NCBI GenBank assembly: GCA_003218305.1
Contig: QHMY01000048.1
Span: 1-54,419, forward strand
Source: Verrucomicrobiota bacterium
GTDB lineage: Bacteria; Verrucomicrobiota; Verrucomicrobiia; Chthoniobacterales; UBA10450
Length of the DNA: 54,419 nt
Direction of reading: 5' to 3'
The notes below the pieces were generated by a model. It was not told the DNA's origin, ran no database searches, and saw only the letters and a list, made by a program, of their open reading frames with translations. This document shows positions 14,373-38,775 of the stretch, in pieces. Each line of letters begins with the position of its first letter. Position 1 is the first letter of the stretch. The position numbers and the translations under genes are program-made.

Positions 14373-17300
14373 CTATTGGAGATTATAAACCTCGACCAAC
14401 CCGTTCCCGGTCCCGTTGTTCGCGCCGCGCACGATGGCCGTATAGCCGCCGGGCGGAACCGTCATCACCACAGCGGATTCGAGATCATTACTTGGGGCCA
14501 GACCCGTGGCCTCAATTTCGGCCTGCTGGCTGCCACCGGTATCGCGCGTCTTCCAGTTGTTGTTCGAAACCAGGAGCGCGCCATTGCTATCGCGCAGTTC
14601 CAGCGTCGGATCGGCCAGGGGATTCGGCACGCCAAACTGGCCCAGGAAAGGTCCGATCGCACGCACAACCACTCTCGCTGTTTGATTGCCTACAATGAAA
14701 CCACCGATCATCGCGCCATCGCCCGTCTGGACAAAACCTCTGGTGCTAATGTTGCCAACCCTCCCGATCGCGTGGCTCAGATCGTATCCCTCCACGACAG
14801 CGATGCCGGTGCTGCCGCCCGCACCGCGCAACACCGCGGTGTAACTCCCCGGCGCTAACGTCGCCACGATGGCGGATTCGTTGTCGTGAGTGGGTGCGAG
14901 GCCACTCGACTTGATGCCGAAAAATTGGTTCCCGGTAATGGCTCCACCCACTTGGGTGACTTTCCAGTTATCGTTGCTGCCGAGCAGGGTTCCGGCGGCG
15001 TCGCGCAACTCGATCGTCGGATCCGATATTGCGCCGGGCAGAATCGAAGAGAGCGATGGCCCGATCGCGCGAAAGAGCACTGTCTTGTTGCCCGGTCCCA
15101 GGAGAATAAATCCGCCAATGAGAATGTTGTCCCCGGTGCCGACCTGCAACCGCGTGGAGACGTTGAGGAGCGCATTCAAGGTCGTTCCCGGCAAAAGCGT
15201 TTCCCACACGCCCCGACCGTAGGTCGCCGCCCTCAACCTGCCGCTGGAAGGATTAATCTGGAGATCGCTTATGCTCACATTCGGCAGGTTAGTGTTGAAC
15301 GGTTCCCAATCGGGCAAGCTGTTGTCCCTCCGGAAAACTCCGGCGTTCGTTCCCACATAGACGGCACCCTGCGAGCCTCTTTCGGCCACGATAGTGTGGG
15401 CCGAGAACGTCGTCAGACTGCCCGAGTAATTTGACCAGGAGGCGCCGCCATTCTGGCTGAAGTAAACGACGTTGCCTTGCGAGTCTTCGAGGGCCACCCA
15501 AACACGGTCCGGATTCGCGGGGTCAATCGCAATACCGGTTGCGATCTTGTTGGGCAAACCGTTGCCGCTGATATTCCCGAAATTGCTCCCGCCGGTAATG
15601 CTCCGAACCATCATCCCATTGCCCAGGTCATCGCCACGCGAGGCATAGATCACCTGAGGATTCGACGGTGCCACTGCAATTGCGTGGACTACCATGTTGT
15701 CCGTGAAATTCGTCAGCGGGCTCCAGCTGCCGTTGTCGCCGAAGGTATCGCTCCGATGGATATTCCGAAGACCCGCGTAAGCGATCCGCAAATCATTGGG
15801 ATCAACGGCAAAGGCCGCGCCGGGGAACCGCGAAGGCTCGCTCGCGATATCGAGTGGGATGAAGAAATTCTGGAATCCATCCACGGTTTTGAAATTGCCA
15901 CCATTACTCCCGGCAAAAACCAGGTCGATCGATTGGGGATGAATGAGCGGCTGACCCCAGTCGCCGGCGCGCACGTGTTCCCATCGTCCGTTAAAGAGCC
16001 GGTTGAACCCGTTATCCTGTTCGCCTGCATAAACCAGCCCGCCGTTCTGGTTGGAGATGCTGAAATGGTAGATCTGCGCGATCTGCAATTTCTGGCTCAG
16101 ATCTGTCCAATGCGCCCCCATGTCATTGGTGCGATGCAAGCCACCGTCGGTGCAGGCGTAAAGTGAGCCACCGGCAAACTGAAGATCGTGCACATCCACG
16201 TGGGTAATGGTCAGGCCGGGAGTGATGCCCCCTTCCAACCCGGTAATCGGCGTCCAGCTCCCGCCGGCGTTGGTCGAGCGCAGAGGCGACACACCGCCGA
16301 TGTAAAGCTCGGACGAGTTCGTCGGTGAGACCGTAATAGACATGTCGTAGGTGGCTTGGTTGCCGAAATCGGAAAGGGCACCGCCCGTTCCGGCCGTGGC
16401 GCTGAACGAACTGCCGCCGTCCGTCGAACGGTAGACTCCGTTGAGACCATTCGTGCCCCGGGCGCTGCAGATCACATAAACAACATTCGCGTCATTCGGC
16501 GAGACGGCGATCTGGCAACGCTGCACTGCAGAGGAAGCCGGCAAGCCGGGCGGGATCGGACCCCAGGACGACCCGCTGTTGGTCGAGCGGCGAAAGGCGC
16601 CGTCCTTGCTCATCGCGTAAACGACGGCCGGATTGCCCGGACGAAGCTTCACATCATACATCGGAAAATCGCCACCAGCGCTTCCCGAAGGGTTGATGGG
16701 CTGCCAGCTCGCTCCGCCATCCGTCGTCTTGAAAATGCCGTTGTGCTCGGACGCGTAGACGATGTTCGGGTTGGTCGGATCCACGGCAAGTTTCGTGATA
16801 ATCCGAAAGTCGACCTGATTGAACGTGAGCGCGGTCGCGTTCCAACTCACGCCACCATCGGTCGATTTGTAAACGCCAATACTCGGCGTGGCAAACGCGT
16901 TCGCGTCCCCCGTCGCCATGTACGCGATGTTACCGTTGCTGGCCGCGAACTCGATATCGCTCACGCCCAGCACGGGAAGATTATCCGTGCGGGGACTCCA
17001 ATTCTGGCCGCCATCAGTGCTCAACCAGACCCCACCGCTCGCGGCTCCGACCAGGAGGCGGTTCGGATCGTTCGGCGCAATCGCAACACAGTTCACCCGG
17101 CCGAGGCTCGGCTCCAGAATGGTGTTCACACCTACATCGGTGAGTTGCGTCGGACCGATCGGAATCCAGTTGGAGATCGCGCTTGGAGTGAGTGGACCCT
17201 GGCTGGCCTGGTCCGCCGCCGTGCCCGTGCCCCAGCGCCTCTTCAAAAAGCCGGGCGGCGGCATGTCGCTCTCCCCCTTTTCGCTCGCCTCCGTAAGTGT

Positions 17301-17417
17301 TCGAGCCCCGGCTTTCCGAGGCGACAAAGAGAGATAGCTCGCGCTGCAAAGAACGACTGCGACAAGGATCGTTGCCGCAAAGGCCAGCCTTATTCCGGAA
17401 TGTAAATTTATTTTCAT
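14373..17417 (-). CDS. Secreted BNR/sortilin-like propeller protein with two C-terminal beta-sandwich modules
   Basis: The protein has 1014 residues. An N-terminal hydrophobic export segment (about residues 8-30) is followed by a long propeller region with at least eight Asp-box repeats (for example STDGGQNWSP, STDGGVSWNA, TTDGGASWQP, SQNGGASWSN), as in VPS10/BNR exo-sialidase-like folds. From about residue 760 there are two tandem ~125-residue modules with the shared words VLFRAIGPSL / VVVRAIGPFL, DPTIELRD / DPTLELRD, NDNWK / NNNWK and VVEGYDL / LVEVYNL. The protein ends exactly after the second. No catalytic residues are recognisable, so this is probably a surface or extracellular binding protein. 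The same modules occur in the partial gene at 53705-54419. The ATG at 17417 was chosen because it begins just before the hydrophobic segment. Confidence 0.85.
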   Translation of the reverse strand: MKINLHSGIRLAFAATILVAVVLCSASYLSLSPRKAGARTLTEASEKGESDMPPPGFLKRRWGTGTAADQASQGPLTPSAISNWIPIGPTQLTDVGVNTILEPSLGRVNCVAIAPNDPNRLLVGAASGGVWLSTDGGQNWSPRTDNLPVLGVSDIEFAASNGNIAYMATGDANAFATPSIGVYKSTDGGVSWNATALTFNQVDFRIITKLAVDPTNPNIVYASEHNGIFKTTDGGASWQPINPSGSAGGDFPMYDVKLRPGNPAVVYAMSKDGAFRRSTNSGSSWGPIPPGLPASSAVQRCQIAVSPNDANVVYVICSARGTNGLNGVYRSTDGGSSFSATAGTGGALSDFGNQATYDMSITVSPTNSSELYIGGVSPLRSTNAGGSWTPITGLEGGITPGLTITHVDVHDLQFAGGSLYACTDGGLHRTNDMGAHWTDLSQKLQIAQIYHFSISNQNGGLVYAGEQDNGFNRLFNGRWEHVRAGDWGQPLIHPQSIDLVFAGSNGGNFKTVDGFQNFFIPLDIASEPSRFPGAAFAVDPNDLRIAYAGLRNIHRSDTFGDNGSWSPLTNFTDNMVVHAIAVAPSNPQVIYASRGDDLGNGMMVRSITGGSNFGNISGNGLPNKIATGIAIDPANPDRVWVALEDSQGNVVYFSQNGGASWSNYSGSLTTFSAHTIVAERGSQGAVYVGTNAGVFRRDNSLPDWEPFNTNLPNVSISDLQINPSSGRLRAATYGRGVWETLLPGTTLNALLNVSTRLQVGTGDNILIGGFILLGPGNKTVLFRAIGPSLSSILPGAISDPTIELRDAAGTLLGSNDNWKVTQVGGAITGNQFFGIKSSGLAPTHDNESAIVATLAPGSYTAVLRGAGGSTGIAVVEGYDLSHAIGRVGNISTRGFVQTGDGAMIGGFIVGNQTARVVVRAIGPFLGQFGVPNPLADPTLELRDSNGALLVSNNNWKTRDTGGSQQAEIEATGLAPSNDLESAVVMTVPPGGYTAIVRGANNGTGNGLVEVYNLQ

Positions 17418-17439
17418 AGCATCGGCCAAAAACGCGCCG

Positions 17440-17468
17440 TTTATGACTTTCCCGGCCCGGCAAGTCAA
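17440..17468 (-). promoter_or_regulatory. Putative sigma-70 promoter of the BNR-propeller gene
   Basis: On the minus strand, TTGACT (5 of 6) and CATAAA (4 of 6) are spaced by 17 bases. The predicted start near 17433 leaves a leader of only about 16 bases before the ATG at 17417, with no obvious Shine-Dalgarno. Confidence 0.45.
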
Positions 17469-27090: not shown

Positions 27091-27258
27091 GGGAATGCTT
27101 CTACTCGGCCAACCGTGGTTTGGCTAGTGAAACGCTTTCGGCCCGGCTCGGTGCCCTTCTGCCTCAAAATTGCCTTTAAAGGAACCCGGAAAAAGGTTAG
27201 CGGTCTCGTGCTTAACGATGAAGAGCCCGAAAAACAGGAATTGTCAGGGAGACAGACG

Positions 27259-28326
27259 ATGCGGGCCGAACCCCGAGGTTCGGACTCTTCAATGAAAACT
27301 GAGCAACCGGAGCCGGCGAACAGCCTGGCCCAACCCGCCGCACCGGGATCGCTACTCATTTCGATCATCCTCCCCCTCTATAACGAAGGCGCCAATTTGC
27401 GCGCCTTCCTCTCCGATGTGAGGACCGCCCTGGATGCGACCGGCCATCCTTTCGAATTGATCCTCATCGACGATGGCTCACCCGACGACACCTGGAAGGT
27501 AATTTCGGACGAAGCGCGCCTGTTTCCCGCCATCCGGGCCGTACGACTAAGCCGGAATTTTGGCAAGGAATTGGCGGTGTGCGCGGGGTTGGAGCGCGCA
27601 CGCGGTGATGCCATGGTCCTGATGGACGGCGACGGACAGCATCCGCCGGCCCTTTTGCCGGACATGGTGCGCCTCTGGGAAACGACCGGAGCGGATATTG
27701 TCGAGGCGGTTAAGATCAAGCGCGGGGCCGAATCGTTGTCCAGCAAAGTGAGCGCGCTGCTTTTCTACCTTATCCTGAACAAACTCTCGGGCTTTGATTT
27801 GAAGGGCGCGTCGGATTTCAAGCTGATGGACCGCAAGGCGATCAACGCCTGGCTCGAAATGAGGGAGAGGAATGTTTTCTTCCGCGGCATGACCGCCTGG
27901 ATGGGCTTCACTACCGTCCGCATTCCATTTGAAGTGGCTCCCCGGTCCGCCGGCAAATCCAGTTGGTCGTATCTGAAACGCCTGAGACTCGCCGTGACGG
28001 GAGTGACTGCTTTCTCGTCGTTTCCTTTGCAACTGGTGACTTTGGCGGGTGCGGTCTTCTTTGTCTTTGCCGTTCTCTTGGGAGCGCAAACGCTCTATCT
28101 CAAACTGGCCGACCGCGCCGTCAGCGGTTTCGCAACGGTCATTCTCCTGGAATTGATCATCGGCAGTTCGCTGATGATCAGCCTGGGGATCGTGGGCGCA
28201 TACCTGGCGCGTATTTACGAAGAGGTGAAAAGCAGGCCTCGCTACGTCGTGGCGCAATCCATCGAACAGAAACATGACCGAATGCCTCCTGCTAGCATAA
28301 CCGCGTCCCCTTCGGATGCAGCTTAA
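27259..28326 (+). CDS. Polyprenyl-phosphate glycosyltransferase, family 2 (GtrB/DPM1-like)
   Basis: The protein has 355 residues. The GT-A domain begins at about residue 35 (LISIILPLYNEGANLRAFL) with LIDDGSPDDTW and the DxD-like MDGDGQHPP, then SDFKLMDRKAINAW. Two C-terminal membrane helices are followed by the conserved GAYLARIYEEVKSRPRYVV end. Such enzymes load a sugar onto undecaprenyl phosphate at the cytoplasmic face. The ATG at 27259 has a good GGGAG seven bases upstream. It is divergent from the GT-C gene at 25615-27090, so the pair may supply donor and transferase. Confidence 0.88.
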   Translation: MRAEPRGSDSSMKTEQPEPANSLAQPAAPGSLLISIILPLYNEGANLRAFLSDVRTALDATGHPFELILIDDGSPDDTWKVISDEARLFPAIRAVRLSRNFGKELAVCAGLERARGDAMVLMDGDGQHPPALLPDMVRLWETTGADIVEAVKIKRGAESLSSKVSALLFYLILNKLSGFDLKGASDFKLMDRKAINAWLEMRERNVFFRGMTAWMGFTTVRIPFEVAPRSAGKSSWSYLKRLRLAVTGVTAFSSFPLQLVTLAGAVFFVFAVLLGAQTLYLKLADRAVSGFATVILLELIIGSSLMISLGIVGAYLARIYEEVKSRPRYVVAQSIEQKHDRMPPASITASPSDAA

Positions 28327-31108: not shown

Positions 31109-32131
31109 ATGAAGCCAACCTTCTCATTCATTGTCCCGGTCTTTAATGAAGAGGAGACTCTCGAAGAGGCATACCGCCGTCTCTCGGCTATCCTGGCCAG
31201 CCTGGACGGCGAGGGGCAAATCATTTTAGTGGATGATGGCAGTCGCGATCGATCCCTGGAAATGATGCGCGATCTGCACCGACGTGATCCCCGGATCTGC
31301 TACATCAGTCTGGCCCGCAACTTCGGCCATCAGATTGCGGTTACGGCCGGGTTGCGCTTTGCCCAAGGCGACGCAGTGATCGTCCTTGATGCCGACCTGC
31401 AAGATCCGCCGGAGCTAATTCCGAAAATGATCGAGCAATGGCGTGCCGGGTATCACGTAGTGTATGCCCAGCGGACCGCTCGCCAGAGTGAAGGCCCCAC
31501 CAAAAAGCTCTTCGCCTACCTCTTCTATCGCGTGCTCCGGCTGTTGACCGACGTCGATATCCCCTCGGATACCGGAGATTTTTGCCTAATGGACCGCAAG
31601 GTCGTTGATGTCCTGAACGCGTTGCCCGAACGAGGCCGGTACCTGCGAGGGTTACGGGCTTGGATTGGCTTTCGCCAAACCGCTGTTCCTTTCGAGCGAG
31701 AGCCGCGCTTTGCCGGCGAAGTTAAATACACCTTTCGCAAGTCGTTCGGCCTGGCTGTGAACGGCATTGTCTCGTTCTCGCGGGTGCCGCTCCGGCTCGC
31801 CACCTATTTGGGGCTTTTGGTTGGTTGCTGCGCGCTGGGCATGGTGGTGGTGGTGATTTACTGGCGCCTCTTTCATCCAGCGCTGCCGCTCATTGGCTAC
31901 ACGATCATCACCGCGGCCATCTTCTTCCTCGCGGCGGTCCAGTTGTTTTGCCTTGGGATCCTGGGCGAATATCTCGGGCGCGTTTATGAAGAGGTAAAGG
32001 GCCGTCCTCTTTTTACTTTGAAGGAAATTGCGGGAATCGAAGGCCATGCTGCGAAGACTGCGTCTCCTCCGCCTTTCATGCGGCCCGCTTCGTCCCAGGA
32101 GATCCAACCGGCTTCAAACCCGGAGCGCTGA
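31109..32131 (+). CDS. Polyprenyl-phosphate glycosyltransferase, family 2 (ArnC/GtrB-like)
   Basis: The protein has 340 residues. The GT-A domain starts at residue 4 ([19 protein letters not shown]) with [10 protein letters not shown] and [13 protein letters not shown] (DxD), followed by the family motif [21 protein letters not shown]. Two membrane helices are near 230-300 and the C-terminal [18 protein letters not shown] is present, then a disordered proline/serine tail. It presumably makes an undecaprenyl-phosphate-linked sugar for one of the GT-C proteins. It converges with the giant GT-C/NHL gene, with only three bases between their stop codons. Confidence 0.92.
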
Positions 32132-32134
32132 GTG

Positions 32135-35100
32135 CTATTTGGTTTCCAACGGGATCTGACTGAGACGGCCGGCATACGTGTTCAACACGTAAAGCTTGCC
32201 TTTTACCAGGGCGAGGCTTGATGCCCCCTCGAGCTTGTCGGGTGGGTTGGGCCTTAAGTGCGCAATCTTCTTTCCCGTAAGATCGAAAGCCAGAACTTCG
32301 TCCGAAGCAATGCACGAGGCGTAGAGGCGTCCGGCCTGGGAATCGACCACTAGATCCTGGAACTGCCATCCCGCGGGCATGTTCCATTCTTCCACTGGCC
32401 ACGTCGCGACAAATTTTCCATTTGTATCAAAGACCTGGATTCGCCCGTTGCTCGGGTCCGCCACGTAGACCCGGTTGTTCTTTCCGTCCACCGCTACGGA
32501 AGTCGGGCCGGTCATTTCGCCGTCACCTTTTCCAGATACCCCCCAAACCAGCACCACCCTTCCATTGGGATCGAACTTAACGATTCGCGAATGCCCTTGA
32601 TCGACGACGTAGACAGAGTTATCCGCGCCGATCGCAATATCGCGCGGCGTTTGCAGTCCTCCGTCGGGAACTTTCCACTCCGCCAGGAAAGTCCCATCGG
32701 GTTTCAGTTTCTGGACCCGATTGTTTGCGGTGTCCGCCACATAAATAAAGCCGTTGCGATCGACCCCAACTCCACCCGGCTCAACGAATTCACCCTGACC
32801 CTGCCCTCTCTTTCCGATAACGTTCACGAAATTCCCGGCCGGCAAAAACTTTTGCAGCCGGTCATTATTACTGTCGGCGACAAAAATATTTCCGGCTGTG
32901 TCAACCGCCAAACCGCGCGGGAAGTTTAACTGCCCATTTTCCTTCCCGTTGCCCGTCTCAAAAACGCTCACCCCCGGAGTTGCGGCGCCTGACTCAGAGC
33001 TTGTCCCAGTCGGGACGAAGTCCGCATTTTCTGGAACCTTATAAATGGCGATCGTCCAATAATCGTTCGCCTCAAATACCTTCTGGAAGTTAGGCACATA
33101 CACTTGCTGCTCATTGTTATTCTTGAAGGCGCCGCGCACCGTGGAATCAAACGCCACGTAATCAATGTGGTTGGCTTTCAAAAGAGTGAACACCTGATGC
33201 GCATTCTTGCTTTCGAACATCAGCCGGTACGCTGCTTCTCGCTTCGGAAGATCGTACCCGGCGGACCAGGTGAAATAGGTGTAGCCAAAGAAGATCTTGC
33301 GACCAGCCAGCAGAATCGGGTGATTGACAAACTTGTCGGTCAGAAAGATCGCGTCCGGCTTCGTTTCGGTCTGGGCCCATTTGATCAGGCGGTCGCCGAC
33401 GATACCTGTCTGAATAAACGTCGCATTGTGAATGGGAAAGAAATCGATTACTCCCCCTGCGACAATGGGAGCCACCAGGATAACGGCGAGCAAGCGCGAA
33501 GGTATGGACCACCATCTTTTCCCAAGACGCCAAAGCCTCCAGAGTCCGTAACCTACAAACAAGTTCGCCACCACGAGCCAGATGTTGAGAAACTTGTGAT
33601 TCGCCAGCGCCTCTTCACTGAACTGAAAGCAGAAGGTGAGGAGGAACAGGCTGAAGATCGCGATAAACAATCTCCAGTGGAGCCAGGAACCAAAAAGGAG
33701 GCCGATCAGGATCAGGATCCATTTAATTCCGAACGTGAATCCCAGGTACTTCACGACCTGCATGACAGGGACGTTCCCGAGCGTATAACCCCAATGGATC
33801 AGAGAGGCTCCCGCCCGCGCATTGCCCGAGCGCAAAGCCAGCACCTGAGGGAGACCTATGAGGGCCGTGGTAATGGCCAGTCCCACCATGTAGCGGCGAC
33901 AAGGAAAGAGGACAAAAAAGAACGCGAGCACGGCAAACGCCGCCGTAAAGACAGGCGCATTCCAATAGGGCATGGCGCCCAGCAGGAGGCCGCAAAAGAT
34001 GAAGCCCCGGCCAGAGACAAGATTGTCATGGACCAAGTCTCCGAGGAAACCTCGCGTTGGTATGGGAGCAGCCACCGGCGGCGTGGGTTCCGCGGCTAAT
34101 TCCTCCCCGACAGGCTCCGGGTCAGGCTCCCGAGAGGATTCGTTGGCAAACTCGAGCGCCTCGGACTCCTGGATCTGGCTTTCCGGGCTGGGATCGGACT
34201 TCGGATGCACATATTCGAACGACCCGGACTCCTGCACGTCGCTTTCCGCGCTAACATCCGATTTCGAGTGCATATACTCGAGCGCCTCGGATTCCTGCAT
34301 CTCTCTTTCCGGGCTGACATCCGATTTCGAATGCATGTACTCATCGTATGCCCGCGTTCGGAAGGTACTTCCCTCTGATGCAGCATCATCGGCGACCGCC
34401 TGGGGCAATTCTTCGGGCGGCACAGGAATCTCGGACTCACCAGGACCGACCGTAGTCAGCTCCGGGTCCGTTTGGACTTGTTCGGTATCTGCCACGGTCT
34501 CCGGCACTCGTGTTTCTCCGGATGACCAATAATTCGCTGCCGGATACGGTTCCTGATAGGACGGTTCCGTTTCGGTTTCTGCAGCCACGCTCGGTTGCGT
34601 TGCGGGCAAGTCGGAGGCCATCGCCACCTCGTCGGTTGGTGGCATCGAGGGAGGCAGGAGGCCGGCAGCTTGCGCGCGATCAATTTCCTTTAGCCTCTTC
34701 TTCTCCTGATATCGATCGATCAAAAAGAACAAAACGACGAGGAAGATTCCGATGGAGCTCGCCAGGTGCCTTTGGTTAACGAAGACCACCTGCGTCCAGA
34801 TTCCCCAATCCTCCCCCCGATAGGGATAGCCTGACGTAAGATAATCCCTCAGCGTGTAGATGGCCTGGAGGGCGCCTTTGAACGATGTTTGCTTGCGAAG
34901 AAATGGGACGAGATTCAGCGTGCCATGGCAGAAGAAGGCCACGGAGGCGACGATCCCGACAGCCCGGGATTTGAAAAGCAACTGCCCTAGCGCGATGACC
35001 ATCGCGAGCATGCAAACCAGCGTGAGGATACTGATGAGGTTGACGCTCCAGGCCAGATTCAGGCCAAGAAATTCAAGATTCCCGGCCAAAAAGTAGAAAA

Positions 35101-35605
35101 GGAAATGGTAGCGGATCGGCTCTCCCGCAAAGTGGGGATACTCAGCCGGGAAATTGTGACCATGAGCGAAACTCTGGACGATGGCGGTGTTCGGCCCATA
35201 GTCGCTCCATTGGGTCATGCCGATCTGGAGAAGGCCCGCCTTGGAGTCGAAGTCGAGCGTCGCGAACATCATCCAGGTAGCCAGCGCGATATAGGCGGCC
35301 AGAAAGATCCAGGTCCAAGCGTCTGTTCCGGGAACGCGCGGCTGAATGAGTGACGAGTCTCGCTTCGGCGGGCAGTTGATCAAAAAAATCGTGGCCACCG
35401 CCAGAAAGACGCAATCGCCCCAAAGCAAAGGGTTGCTGGCACTGGCAAAGTGCCGCGCCGTCAGATAAACAAAGCCCGTGCTGAGCAGCAACCCGACCAG
35501 CGTTGCCGTCGCCCACCGATGGGATACCGAAATATAACGGAAGAAAAGCCCGCAAAGACGATCGCCCACGCAAATGGCCAGGCCCAGGAAAATGAGAGCT
35601 AGCAT
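32135..35605 (-). CDS. Giant membrane protein: GT-C-like transmembrane domain with repeat insert, fused to C-terminal NHL propeller
   Basis: The protein has 1156 residues. Helices to about residue 298 include a periplasmic loop TQWSDYGPNTAIVQSF / FAGEPIRYHFLFYFLAG reminiscent of GT-C or YYY-type membrane enzymes. Residues ~302-520 are an acidic, disordered insert containing three 21-residue tandem repeats (EYMHSKSDVS). More helices lie between about 530 and 722, then a soluble domain (740-860) and about six NHL repeats (~881-1150; words RGLAVDTAGNIFVADSNNDRLQ, VYVVDQGHSRIVKFD). Positive charges after the helix at 283-298 place the insert in the cytoplasm and the propeller outside. A good Shine-Dalgarno (GGAGG, seven bases before ATG) supports the start. 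I know no characterised protein with this layout. Confidence 0.8.
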   Translation of the reverse strand: MLALIFLGLAICVGDRLCGLFFRYISVSHRWATATLVGLLLSTGFVYLTARHFASASNPLLWGDCVFLAVATIFLINCPPKRDSSLIQPRVPGTDAWTWIFLAAYIALATWMMFATLDFDSKAGLLQIGMTQWSDYGPNTAIVQSFAHGHNFPAEYPHFAGEPIRYHFLFYFLAGNLEFLGLNLAWSVNLISILTLVCMLAMVIALGQLLFKSRAVGIVASVAFFCHGTLNLVPFLRKQTSFKGALQAIYTLRDYLTSGYPYRGEDWGIWTQVVFVNQRHLASSIGIFLVVLFFLIDRYQEKKRLKEIDRAQAAGLLPPSMPPTDEVAMASDLPATQPSVAAETETEPSYQEPYPAANYWSSGETRVPETVADTEQVQTDPELTTVGPGESEIPVPPEELPQAVADDAASEGSTFRTRAYDEYMHSKSDVSPEREMQESEALEYMHSKSDVSAESDVQESGSFEYVHPKSDPSPESQIQESEALEFANESSREPDPEPVGEELAAEPTPPVAAPIPTRGFLGDLVHDNLVSGRGFIFCGLLLGAMPYWNAPVFTAAFAVLAFFFVLFPCRRYMVGLAITTALIGLPQVLALRSGNARAGASLIHWGYTLGNVPVMQVVKYLGFTFGIKWILILIGLLFGSWLHWRLFIAIFSLFLLTFCFQFSEEALANHKFLNIWLVVANLFVGYGLWRLWRLGKRWWSIPSRLLAVILVAPIVAGGVIDFFPIHNATFIQTGIVGDRLIKWAQTETKPDAIFLTDKFVNHPILLAGRKIFFGYTYFTWSAGYDLPKREAAYRLMFESKNAHQVFTLLKANHIDYVAFDSTVRGAFKNNNEQQVYVPNFQKVFEANDYWTIAIYKVPENADFVPTGTSSESGAATPGVSVFETGNGKENGQLNFPRGLAVDTAGNIFVADSNNDRLQKFLPAGNFVNVIGKRGQGQGEFVEPGGVGVDRNGFIYVADTANNRVQKLKPDGTFLAEWKVPDGGLQTPRDIAIGADNSVYVVDQGHSRIVKFDPNGRVVLVWGVSGKGDGEMTGPTSVAVDGKNNRVYVADPSNGRIQVFDTNGKFVATWPVEEWNMPAGWQFQDLVVDSQAGRLYASCIASDEVLAFDLTGKKIAHLRPNPPDKLEGASSLALVKGKLYVLNTYAGRLSQIPLETK
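34154..34342 (-). repeat. Three tandem 63-bp coding repeats
   Basis: These encode residues 422-442, 443-463 and 464-484 of the GT-C/NHL protein, each of the form EY(M/V)H(S/P)KSD-x-S(P/A)E followed by QES. The third unit has diverged most, and a fourth degenerate start (EFANES) follows. The period is exactly 21 codons, so copy-number changes would stay in frame. Confidence 0.9.
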
Positions 35606-36669: not shown

Positions 36670-38775
36670 TCATTTCTTCTTAAAAACTTCCACGGCATTC
36701 CATGTCTCATCAGGTGGCCGTGCTTCATATTCGAGCGATCGCTCGAGATACATTCGGGCGAGCGCGTCGTCCGGAACGAATTCGAGAAATTGTGAGAATA
36801 GAACCTTCGCATCCGTGAAGGCGCGTTCGCGGAATTTTCGAGATCCGGCTTCGTAGGTCTGGAGGCGCTCGAGAAATTCTTCATTTCCCGAATCGGCCTT
36901 CGCGCCAATCAAAGTGAAGATCTCGACCGGCCTGTTTTTCCCTTTCACCTGGACGAGCGCGACACTGCGGAGATGAAACTCATCGCGGATCAGCTCGGTC
37001 GCACTTGCGCCCACCAAAATGTCCACGCCATAGGTCCGGGTCAGACCTTCCAGTCGTGAGGCGAGATTCACTGCGTCGCCGATCACGGTCGGATCGGCTT
37101 TCTCCTGCGAGCCGATATTTCCTCCGAGAACATCGCCGTGGTTGATGCCAATTCCGATCGCGAACGGCGCGATCCCCTGCGCTTTCCACCTCGCGTTGAG
37201 CGTTTGCAGCTCCCGCCTCATGGTCAGCGCGGCCCGCGCACACGATTTCGCATCTTCCGTCGCGCCCCGGCTGCTTACGTTCCCCCACACCGCCATGACC
37301 GCGTCGCCAATGAACTTATCGAGGGTTCCGTTGTGCGCGAAGACCGCCGCGGTCATGCGGCTGAGGTATTCGTTGAGTTGTTTGACCAGCGCCTCGGGGT
37401 CGGCGTTTTCCGTCAGGCTGGTGAAACCGACGATATCGGAAAAAAGAATCGTGGCCGGCAGGCGAACGCCTCGCAGACTGCTGTAGAAACTGTCGGGATT
37501 CTCCAGGATTTCTTTGACGAGATTTTTCGAAACGTAACGTTCCAGCGTCCGGCGGGTGCGCATCTTTTCGATCCGTTCCAGCACGTACTCAAAACCGAGC
37601 GAGAGAAACCCACTGCCCAAAAACGCAATCAAGACCGGAACGACGACGACCAGCAACCCCACCCGGTCGTAGGCGATCCGGGCAAACGCCAAATACGCCA
37701 CGGAAACCGCCAGCAGCGCCAGGAACGAGACCAGGGGCCGCCTAACGAGTGCAATAAACGCCCAGGCCAGGACCCCGGCGAAGCCGACCAGGAGGAGATT
37801 GGCGGCCTTCGACGTGTTTTGGAGGAACTCGTGATCTATCGCCGCCGCGATCGCCTGCAAGTGCATCGCGGGCCCCGGTGTATCCAGTTCCATCGGAGTA
37901 ACAACCACGTCAGGCTGGATTTGAGCAGACCACCCCACGACGATGATTTTGTCTTTAAAAAACGCCCCATCCCCATAATTCGCGTACCAGAACTTCGGAT
38001 CGAAGACCTCATAGAGCGGACGCGGAGAGTAGGCGTTGCTTTCGCTGAAACGGAATGGATGGAGCCGTTGATCGCGCGGCACATTCGCCGCGTATCCGAG
38101 CTTCCCCAGTGCGCGGGACGAAAAGGATTCGAAGATCTCCTCGCCGGGAAAAGGCCTCTGCCCAGCCAGCTGGCGTTCCGACGTGGTAAAGCGAATCGCC
38201 CGCACCTTGCCATCGAGTGAATTGGGCCAAAAATTCACAAAACCAACACGATCATCCGCCAGCGCAGGCGGCGGAATGACCACCGCGTTTGGGAGGACAA
38301 TTTGATTCGCGTTTACCACATCGATGTTGGCGCCCACCACCACGCGATCCCGATAGCGCTCAAGCGCCTGACGCAGGATGGGATCGCCTTCGTTGGGCGG
38401 ATTGAAAAGCAGGTCGAACATGACCAACCGTGCGCCGGCGCCGAAAAGCCGGTCGAGCAGCAACGCCCAAACTTCCCGCGACCACGGAAATGCCCGTTCC
38501 GTCATCAACTGGTAGGCGCGATTTGTCGCGATCTCTTCAGGCAGAAGGGGTGGCAACTCCAGCGTACTTTGATCGATGCCAAGGAAAACAAAATCAGGAT
38601 GCGTCGCGGTCTTCCGGCCCTCGCGCTGGAGAAAATCCTCGTAGCTTTGCTCCTGCCGCCAGATCGCCGAGACAAACGGAAAACTCGGAAAAAAATGGAC
38701 CGCGATGATTATCCCCGAGCAAACGGCGCAAATCGCCGCCACGACCAGGGATCGATGACGACTAAGCCAATCCAT
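36670..38775 (-). CDS. CHASE2-domain adenylate/guanylate cyclase
   Basis: The protein has 701 residues. An N-terminal helix is followed by an extracytoplasmic CHASE2 sensor (about 40-320; VFLGIDQSTLELPP, RLVMFDLLFNPPNEGD), three helices (about 323-395), and a cytoplasmic class III cyclase domain. Metal aspartates are Asp447 (LFSDIVGFTSLTE) and Asp491 (IGDAVMAVWG). Lys487 in LDKFIGD and the DPTVIGDAVNLASRLE segment (Asn570, Arg574) point to ATP as substrate, so the product is probably cAMP. The signal sensed by CHASE2 is unknown. The enzyme looks intact. Confidence 0.93.
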   Translation of the reverse strand: MDWLSRHRSLVVAAICAVCSGIIIAVHFFPSFPFVSAIWRQEQSYEDFLQREGRKTATHPDFVFLGIDQSTLELPPLLPEEIATNRAYQLMTERAFPWSREVWALLLDRLFGAGARLVMFDLLFNPPNEGDPILRQALERYRDRVVVGANIDVVNANQIVLPNAVVIPPPALADDRVGFVNFWPNSLDGKVRAIRFTTSERQLAGQRPFPGEEIFESFSSRALGKLGYAANVPRDQRLHPFRFSESNAYSPRPLYEVFDPKFWYANYGDGAFFKDKIIVVGWSAQIQPDVVVTPMELDTPGPAMHLQAIAAAIDHEFLQNTSKAANLLLVGFAGVLAWAFIALVRRPLVSFLALLAVSVAYLAFARIAYDRVGLLVVVVPVLIAFLGSGFLSLGFEYVLERIEKMRTRRTLERYVSKNLVKEILENPDSFYSSLRGVRLPATILFSDIVGFTSLTENADPEALVKQLNEYLSRMTAAVFAHNGTLDKFIGDAVMAVWGNVSSRGATEDAKSCARAALTMRRELQTLNARWKAQGIAPFAIGIGINHGDVLGGNIGSQEKADPTVIGDAVNLASRLEGLTRTYGVDILVGASATELIRDEFHLRSVALVQVKGKNRPVEIFTLIGAKADSGNEEFLERLQTYEAGSRKFRERAFTDAKVLFSQFLEFVPDDALARMYLERSLEYEARPPDETWNAVEVFKKK

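Follow-up and report, generated by a model that had tools for sequence, protein, structure and literature searches.

The gene studied here lies in a window (the whole stretch of DNA analysed, 54,419 nucleotides from a member of the Verrucomicrobiota) where it is surrounded by GT2 glycosyltransferases, methyltransferases and another multi-TM protein (Table 1). Read from the N-terminus, its product consists of three transmembrane (TM) helices, an 11-TM core interrupted by an insert, an alpha/beta domain and an NHL propeller, with 14 hydrophobic helices predicted altogether. The gene is real and well conserved, since 17 full-length NHL-bearing family members, the window protein included, align end to end, and the dN/dS against the orthologue in the related Verrucomicrobial genome G002 is low (membrane part 0.09, C-terminal domain 0.12, NHL 0.12, insert 0.29). 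The three leading helices are missing in the Patescibacterial homologues, which are about 545 residues long. AlphaFold modelled the window protein with a pLDDT of 67.6 and the insert disordered, and the orthologue L043, which has an insert of 28 residues (46-sequence alignment), with a pLDDT of 90.4. The open reading frame, Pfam and these models confirm the layout given in a preliminary description of the locus, namely a 1156-residue chain with a split membrane domain, an insert and a C-terminal NHL propeller.

Table 1. Features of the gene and of its neighbours in the window
Feature	Residues	Positions	Strand	Basis or remark
Whole gene	1156 aa	32135..35605	(-)	Exact open reading frame, ATG start; orthologues known
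Three N-terminal TM helices before the GT-C-like core	1-78	35372..35605	(-)	Alignment and model
Membrane core, first half (core TM1-TM4)	96-304	34694..35320	(-)	Profile comparison, alignment, topology
Periplasmic loop 1, bearing the invariant D135 and IRYHFLF (164-170)	118-183	35057..35254	(-)	34-sequence alignment; outside by topology
Invariant QRH, end of second periplasmic loop	278-280	34766..34774	(-)	Alignment
Acidic disordered insert, predicted cytoplasmic, of variable length	305-528	34022..34693	(-)	Composition, model, topology
Tandem repeat in the insert		34150..34342	(-)	63 bp (21 aa), 3.1 copies, 77% match
Membrane core, second half (core TM5-TM11)	529-723	33437..34021	(-)	Profile comparison, alignment, topology
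Invariant N669 and K671, periplasmic loop between last TM helices	669-671	33593..33601	(-)	Alignment
Extracytoplasmic alpha/beta domain	724-860	33026..33436	(-)	Models; related to YYY / Dpy19-like C-terminal domain
Six-bladed NHL propeller, predicted periplasmic	880-1156	32138..32968	(-)	Pfam, phmmer, models, topology
Adjacent convergent GT2		31109..32131	(+)	Polyprenyl-phosphate glycosyltransferase type (PgfS/ArnC-like)
Second polyprenyl-phosphate GT2		27115..28326	(+)	Best solved match GtrB structure 5ekp, 6.5e-60
Membrane protein without propeller	567 aa	28429..30132	(-)	No significant Pfam match; conserved neighbour

The six-repeat C-terminal NHL propeller proposed at the outset is real. 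Its Pfam match (6.9e-31) reached 105.2 bits against a cut-off of 20, phmmer against NHL structures gave E values down to 8.3e-59, VIA-align superposed it on the NHL domain of TRIM3 (Z 38.9, 265 residues, 1.7 A), and the models of both the window protein and L043 have six blades, so that repeats over the cut-off and fold agree. The ligands of NHL propellers are of many kinds, and the preliminary description offered acceptor binding or wall sensing as possible roles here. Between phyla, conservation is highest in blades 3 and 4 (W977, YGPR at 985-988, and V1001, D1002 and G1004), and the window copy deviates at 985-986, where it reads LQTPR in place of FYGPR.

The orientation of the chain was scored with the insert set inside and the C-terminus outside, from the K+R density of the loop residues flanking the TM helices in 17 orthologues, which was 0.184 on the cytoplasmic sides versus 0.085 on the periplasmic sides. 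Because of this charge bias, the conserved residues and the homologues, the insert is predicted to be cytoplasmic and the propeller periplasmic; this is the placement claimed earlier, and the bias gave no sign of a propeller in the cytoplasm. In an alignment of 34 sequences from Verrucomicrobiota, Acidobacteria, Patescibacteria, Omnitrophota and Clostridia, D135, IRYHFLF (164-170), QRH (278-280), N669, K671 and G768 are invariant (34/34), and these residues are predicted to lie outside or where that side meets the membrane. In published models, GT-C enzymes bear an acidic motif directly behind TM1, and an R/K is conserved in the loop within their last four TM helices; the known enzymes use polyprenyl-phosphate sugars at the periplasmic side (PMC6801728). 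The invariant residues of the present family stand, in the predicted topology, where GT-C enzymes have theirs: the 11-TM core, preceded by three extra helices, lies within the range of 7 to 13 with its N-terminus in and its C-terminus out, D135 (a single D, not DxD) falls in a large extracytoplasmic loop after core TM1, and K671 provides the basic residue among the last four helices.

The insert of 224 residues carries a net charge of -38, and in the model of the window protein most of it has a pLDDT below 50. The preliminary description was right that an acidic, disordered repeat insert of about 220 residues is present, but it proved to be nothing special, a variable and faster-evolving linker. 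Among family members its length varies from 28 to 228 residues, and the long repeat insert is species-specific, orthologues having 28 to 173 residues there; with this range and a dN/dS of about 0.3, the repeat insert was rejected as a conserved functional domain, and the tandem-repeat loop is incidental. The Clostridial homologues L105, L113 and L122 have a long acidic insert of their own in a different loop, also predicted to be cytoplasmic, which joins the last two TM helices.

The membrane part has no significant match of its own in Pfam or NCBIfam, and the window protein reaches no curated GT-C, DUF2298 or Dpy19 cut-off; in the window genome, no match was obtained for DUF2298 (PF10060), nor for TIGR03662 in the NCBIfam scan. 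By hhalign, the membrane family matched the Patescibacterial homologues (100%, E 1.2e-95) and the YYY/TIGR03662 proteins (96%, E 4.8e-9), and the Patescibacterial family itself matched YYY (96% over 458 columns). The Verrucomicrobial profile also matched Dpy19-like proteins (88.5%, E 2.7e-6), as did YYY the Dpy19 profile (92.4%), whereas the Patescibacterial profile scored only 7.5% against Dpy19-like proteins, level with the 7.9% of its reversed copy used as a control. The Dpy19 link therefore rests on the Verrucomicrobial profile, on the match between YYY and Dpy19 and on weak Pfam matches, the latter absent for the window protein, at 3.1e-5 in Acidobacterial orthologues (22.8 bits in L092; cut-off 27.2 bits) and at best 1.6e-5 among 34 family members. 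Taken together, these comparisons show that the membrane part is distantly related to the DUF2298/YYY and Dpy19-type GT-C proteins, in support of the GT-C/YYY-like domain first proposed, and no transporter family without a catalytic loop was matched. A search of PDB sequences with the membrane-family profile (hmmsearch) found no match and hence no solved structure. When the models were compared by Foldseek and VIA-align, the PDB matches listed were all propellers and those in the viral library mostly so; the PDB fold matches, being taken up by the propeller, say nothing on the membrane fold (model pLDDT 90.4).

Strong homologues were found in about 24 of the 147 relatives and, separately, at 55 loci of named genomes; the family spans Verrucomicrobiota, Acidobacteria, Patescibacteria and Clostridia, with homologues in Omnitrophota. 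A search for the same fusion elsewhere in the Verrucomicrobiota, which the preliminary description had suggested, showed that it recurs in Chthoniobacterales MAGs, and also in three Acidobacterial MAGs (L091, L092 and L096). The propeller is absent from the Patescibacterial, Clostridial and Omnitrophota homologues and from two Verrucomicrobial ones, so it is not everywhere required for the function of the core. In the tree, the Acidobacterial L091 and L092 nest among Verrucomicrobial sequences and the propeller-less L045 and L049 group with L096 and L094, a placement that makes loss or repeated gain of the propeller possible. Another member of the wider family, one with no propeller, is encoded in the window genome (G000:C28), and its family profile matches the Patescibacterial one at 99%. 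In a relative of the same genus, a YYY-like protein (L026:802-3342; TIGR03662 2.5e-9) ends in a DUF4214 domain, not in a propeller.

Among the Verrucomicrobial loci whose 3' flank is long enough (judged by eye), all 13 have a polyprenyl-phosphate GT2 at most 6 kb away, as do two of three Acidobacterial loci and two of five Clostridial ones; the Patescibacterial homologues and the Acidobacterial L096 have none within that distance. Other Verrucomicrobiota, and Acidobacteria, have orthologues of the more distant of the two GT2s in Table 1 flanking the gene. The 567-residue membrane protein is probably another GT-C-type protein, judging from a motif, LDE, read by eye after its TM1. Upstream of the gene (36670-38775) is a fusion of CHASE2 with an adenylate/guanylate cyclase, kept near the gene in relatives of the same genus. 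Large Sortilin/Vps10-like BNR-repeat proteins were also observed, in the window (14373-17468) and in L034 (4182-6938); in G002 one of them is near the propeller cluster.

The propeller is common to other membrane proteins encoded beside the gene in its relatives. With the class of the window gene called c1, three further classes, c2a (911-942 aa), c2b (778-803 aa) and c3 (713-715 aa, truncated c1), each have a homologous C-terminal NHL, and c2b was found in two phyla, in the Verrucomicrobial G002 and the Acidobacterial L092. The c2a and c2b genes at L037:5411-8239, L034:12906-15317 and L092:9099-11435 lie next to a c1 gene and encode membrane parts without a Pfam match. Between the membrane parts of c1, c2a and c2b no sequence similarity was detected (hhalign below 2%), and they were rejected as recognisable homologues; the alignments were shallow, which leaves room for remote homology. 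A tree of the NHL domains mixes the classes and pairs the c1 and c2b propellers of G002 as sisters, which are 90% identical with a dS of 0.17 versus about 1.5 between the c1 orthologues of G000 and G002, from which it follows that the propeller module was copied recently. The c1 and c2 propellers of G081 are older (dS 1.18). We thus have recent copying or conversion in one genome, and the shape of the tree suggests copying or conversion in others. In the c3 paralogues at L037:8267-10408, L039:1815-3962 and L038:1733-3745, which are possible pseudoenzymes, the conserved YHFLF and NHK have gone, along with a portion of the membrane core, and the propeller is kept; the c3 copy of G067 is interrupted by a stop. 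No second propeller-tailed membrane protein was seen in the window genome, an assembly 88.7% complete in which the other NHL proteins read are non-membrane-enzyme proteins.

We envisage that the window gene encodes a periplasmic GT-C-like glycosyltransferase dependent on a lipid-phosphate sugar, whose propeller would dock the acceptor or a shared partner, a reading to which we give a probability of roughly 0.55. On the cytoplasmic side, a nearby GT2 would attach a sugar to polyprenyl phosphate, and the charged lipid would be flipped across the inner membrane; the core may then transfer the sugar to the acceptor by means of the periplasmic D135, R165/H167, R279/H280 and K671, with the alpha/beta domain as a putative lid over the active site. 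Beyond the lid, the propeller may hold the acceptor or a partner protein common to the neighbouring propeller-bearing membrane enzymes, and the acidic repeat insert would be a flexible, non-essential cytoplasmic linker. The presence of the same propeller on unrelated-looking neighbouring membrane proteins, in one case copied recently, suggests a shared docking part for the building of surface sugars. A wider version, in which periplasmic glycosyltransferases with different cores in two phyla use one interchangeable NHL socket for the same acceptor or scaffold, spread by repeated copying and gene conversion, and so join a single assembly line for a surface glycan, is tentative and on balance doubtful.

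The same enzyme could instead use its propeller as a scaffold that gathers membrane glycosyltransferases, through contacts between propellers or through a third protein, with no contact to glycan. Several unrelated-looking adjacent membrane proteins with the same propeller, homogenised in at least one genome, fit this, as do the intact propellers of the truncated c3 paralogues and the blade 3 and 4 positions common to membrane types and phyla. We nevertheless regard it as unlikely, given a window genome in which one tailed protein was seen and which, accordingly, does not call for a complex of several such enzymes. Those blade positions, retained between Verrucomicrobiota and Acidobacteria, together with purifying selection on the NHL part, also speak against a propeller with no shared role, that is, a recombination-prone segment spreading between neighbouring genes and tolerated there; the intermixed and, in G002, nearly identical copies and the homologues without a propeller would suit such a segment, which we consider very improbable. 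It is also quite improbable that the membrane part is a transporter or flippase of lipid-linked sugars, or else an inactive sensor, the propeller being its periplasmic sensing domain. That the family is biochemically uncharacterised, with a GT-C fold that is putative, and that its membrane part matches no curated enzyme family agree with such a role, yet the links to YYY and Dpy19-like proteins, though distant, were controlled, and the invariant acidic and basic residues lie only on the predicted periplasmic side, as in GT-C enzymes.

The propellers of TRIM2/3/71 and PknD have the same fold (Z 28-39), and that of PknD, an extracellular sensor, likewise lies outside a membrane-anchored enzyme; they are joined to ubiquitin ligases or a kinase, whereas the present one is joined to a glycosyltransferase-like membrane core. 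In layout, the closest resemblance is to the GT136 enzyme ORF12 and the Emb arabinosyltransferases, in which a GT-C core bears an extra C-terminal, beta-rich periplasmic CBM for the acceptor glycan and which work with a lipid-phosphate-sugar synthase (PMC11127046), although the extra domain is a CBM there and an NHL propeller here. A GT-C protein with an appended periplasmic binding domain is therefore already known; an NHL propeller in that place, or any fusion of NHL with GT-C, was not found described in the literature searched, open-licence papers in which absence proves little. The common propeller is the most interesting part of the finding. Its sharing and recent copying offer a handle on how soil Verrucomicrobia may assemble the enzymes of a surface-glycan pathway, and the comparisons above assign an unannotated membrane family of four bacterial groups, Patescibacteria among them, to a likely biochemical class.

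With the Dpy19 GT-C proteins (tryptophan C-mannosyltransferase and bacterial Dpy19-like proteins, PF10034) the family shares a similar C-terminal extracytoplasmic alpha/beta domain, to which the similarity is mainly confined, while remaining under the Pfam cut-off; in CeDPY19 the C-terminal domain forms a lid over the active site, and the chain ends in a luminal dome (PMC10154233). The likeness to DUF2298/Chlor_Arch_YYY (PF10060, TIGR03662) is a distant similarity that includes the extracytoplasmic C-terminal part, but the window protein matches neither model, has RYHFLF for the YYY motif that names that family, and bears a propeller. A true DUF2298/YYY gene (L097:9529-11583) adjoins the Patescibacterial homologue of L097, which has an amine-oxidase-like gene (L097:4710-5927) on its other side, and the neighbours at L098 and L103 resemble those of L097.
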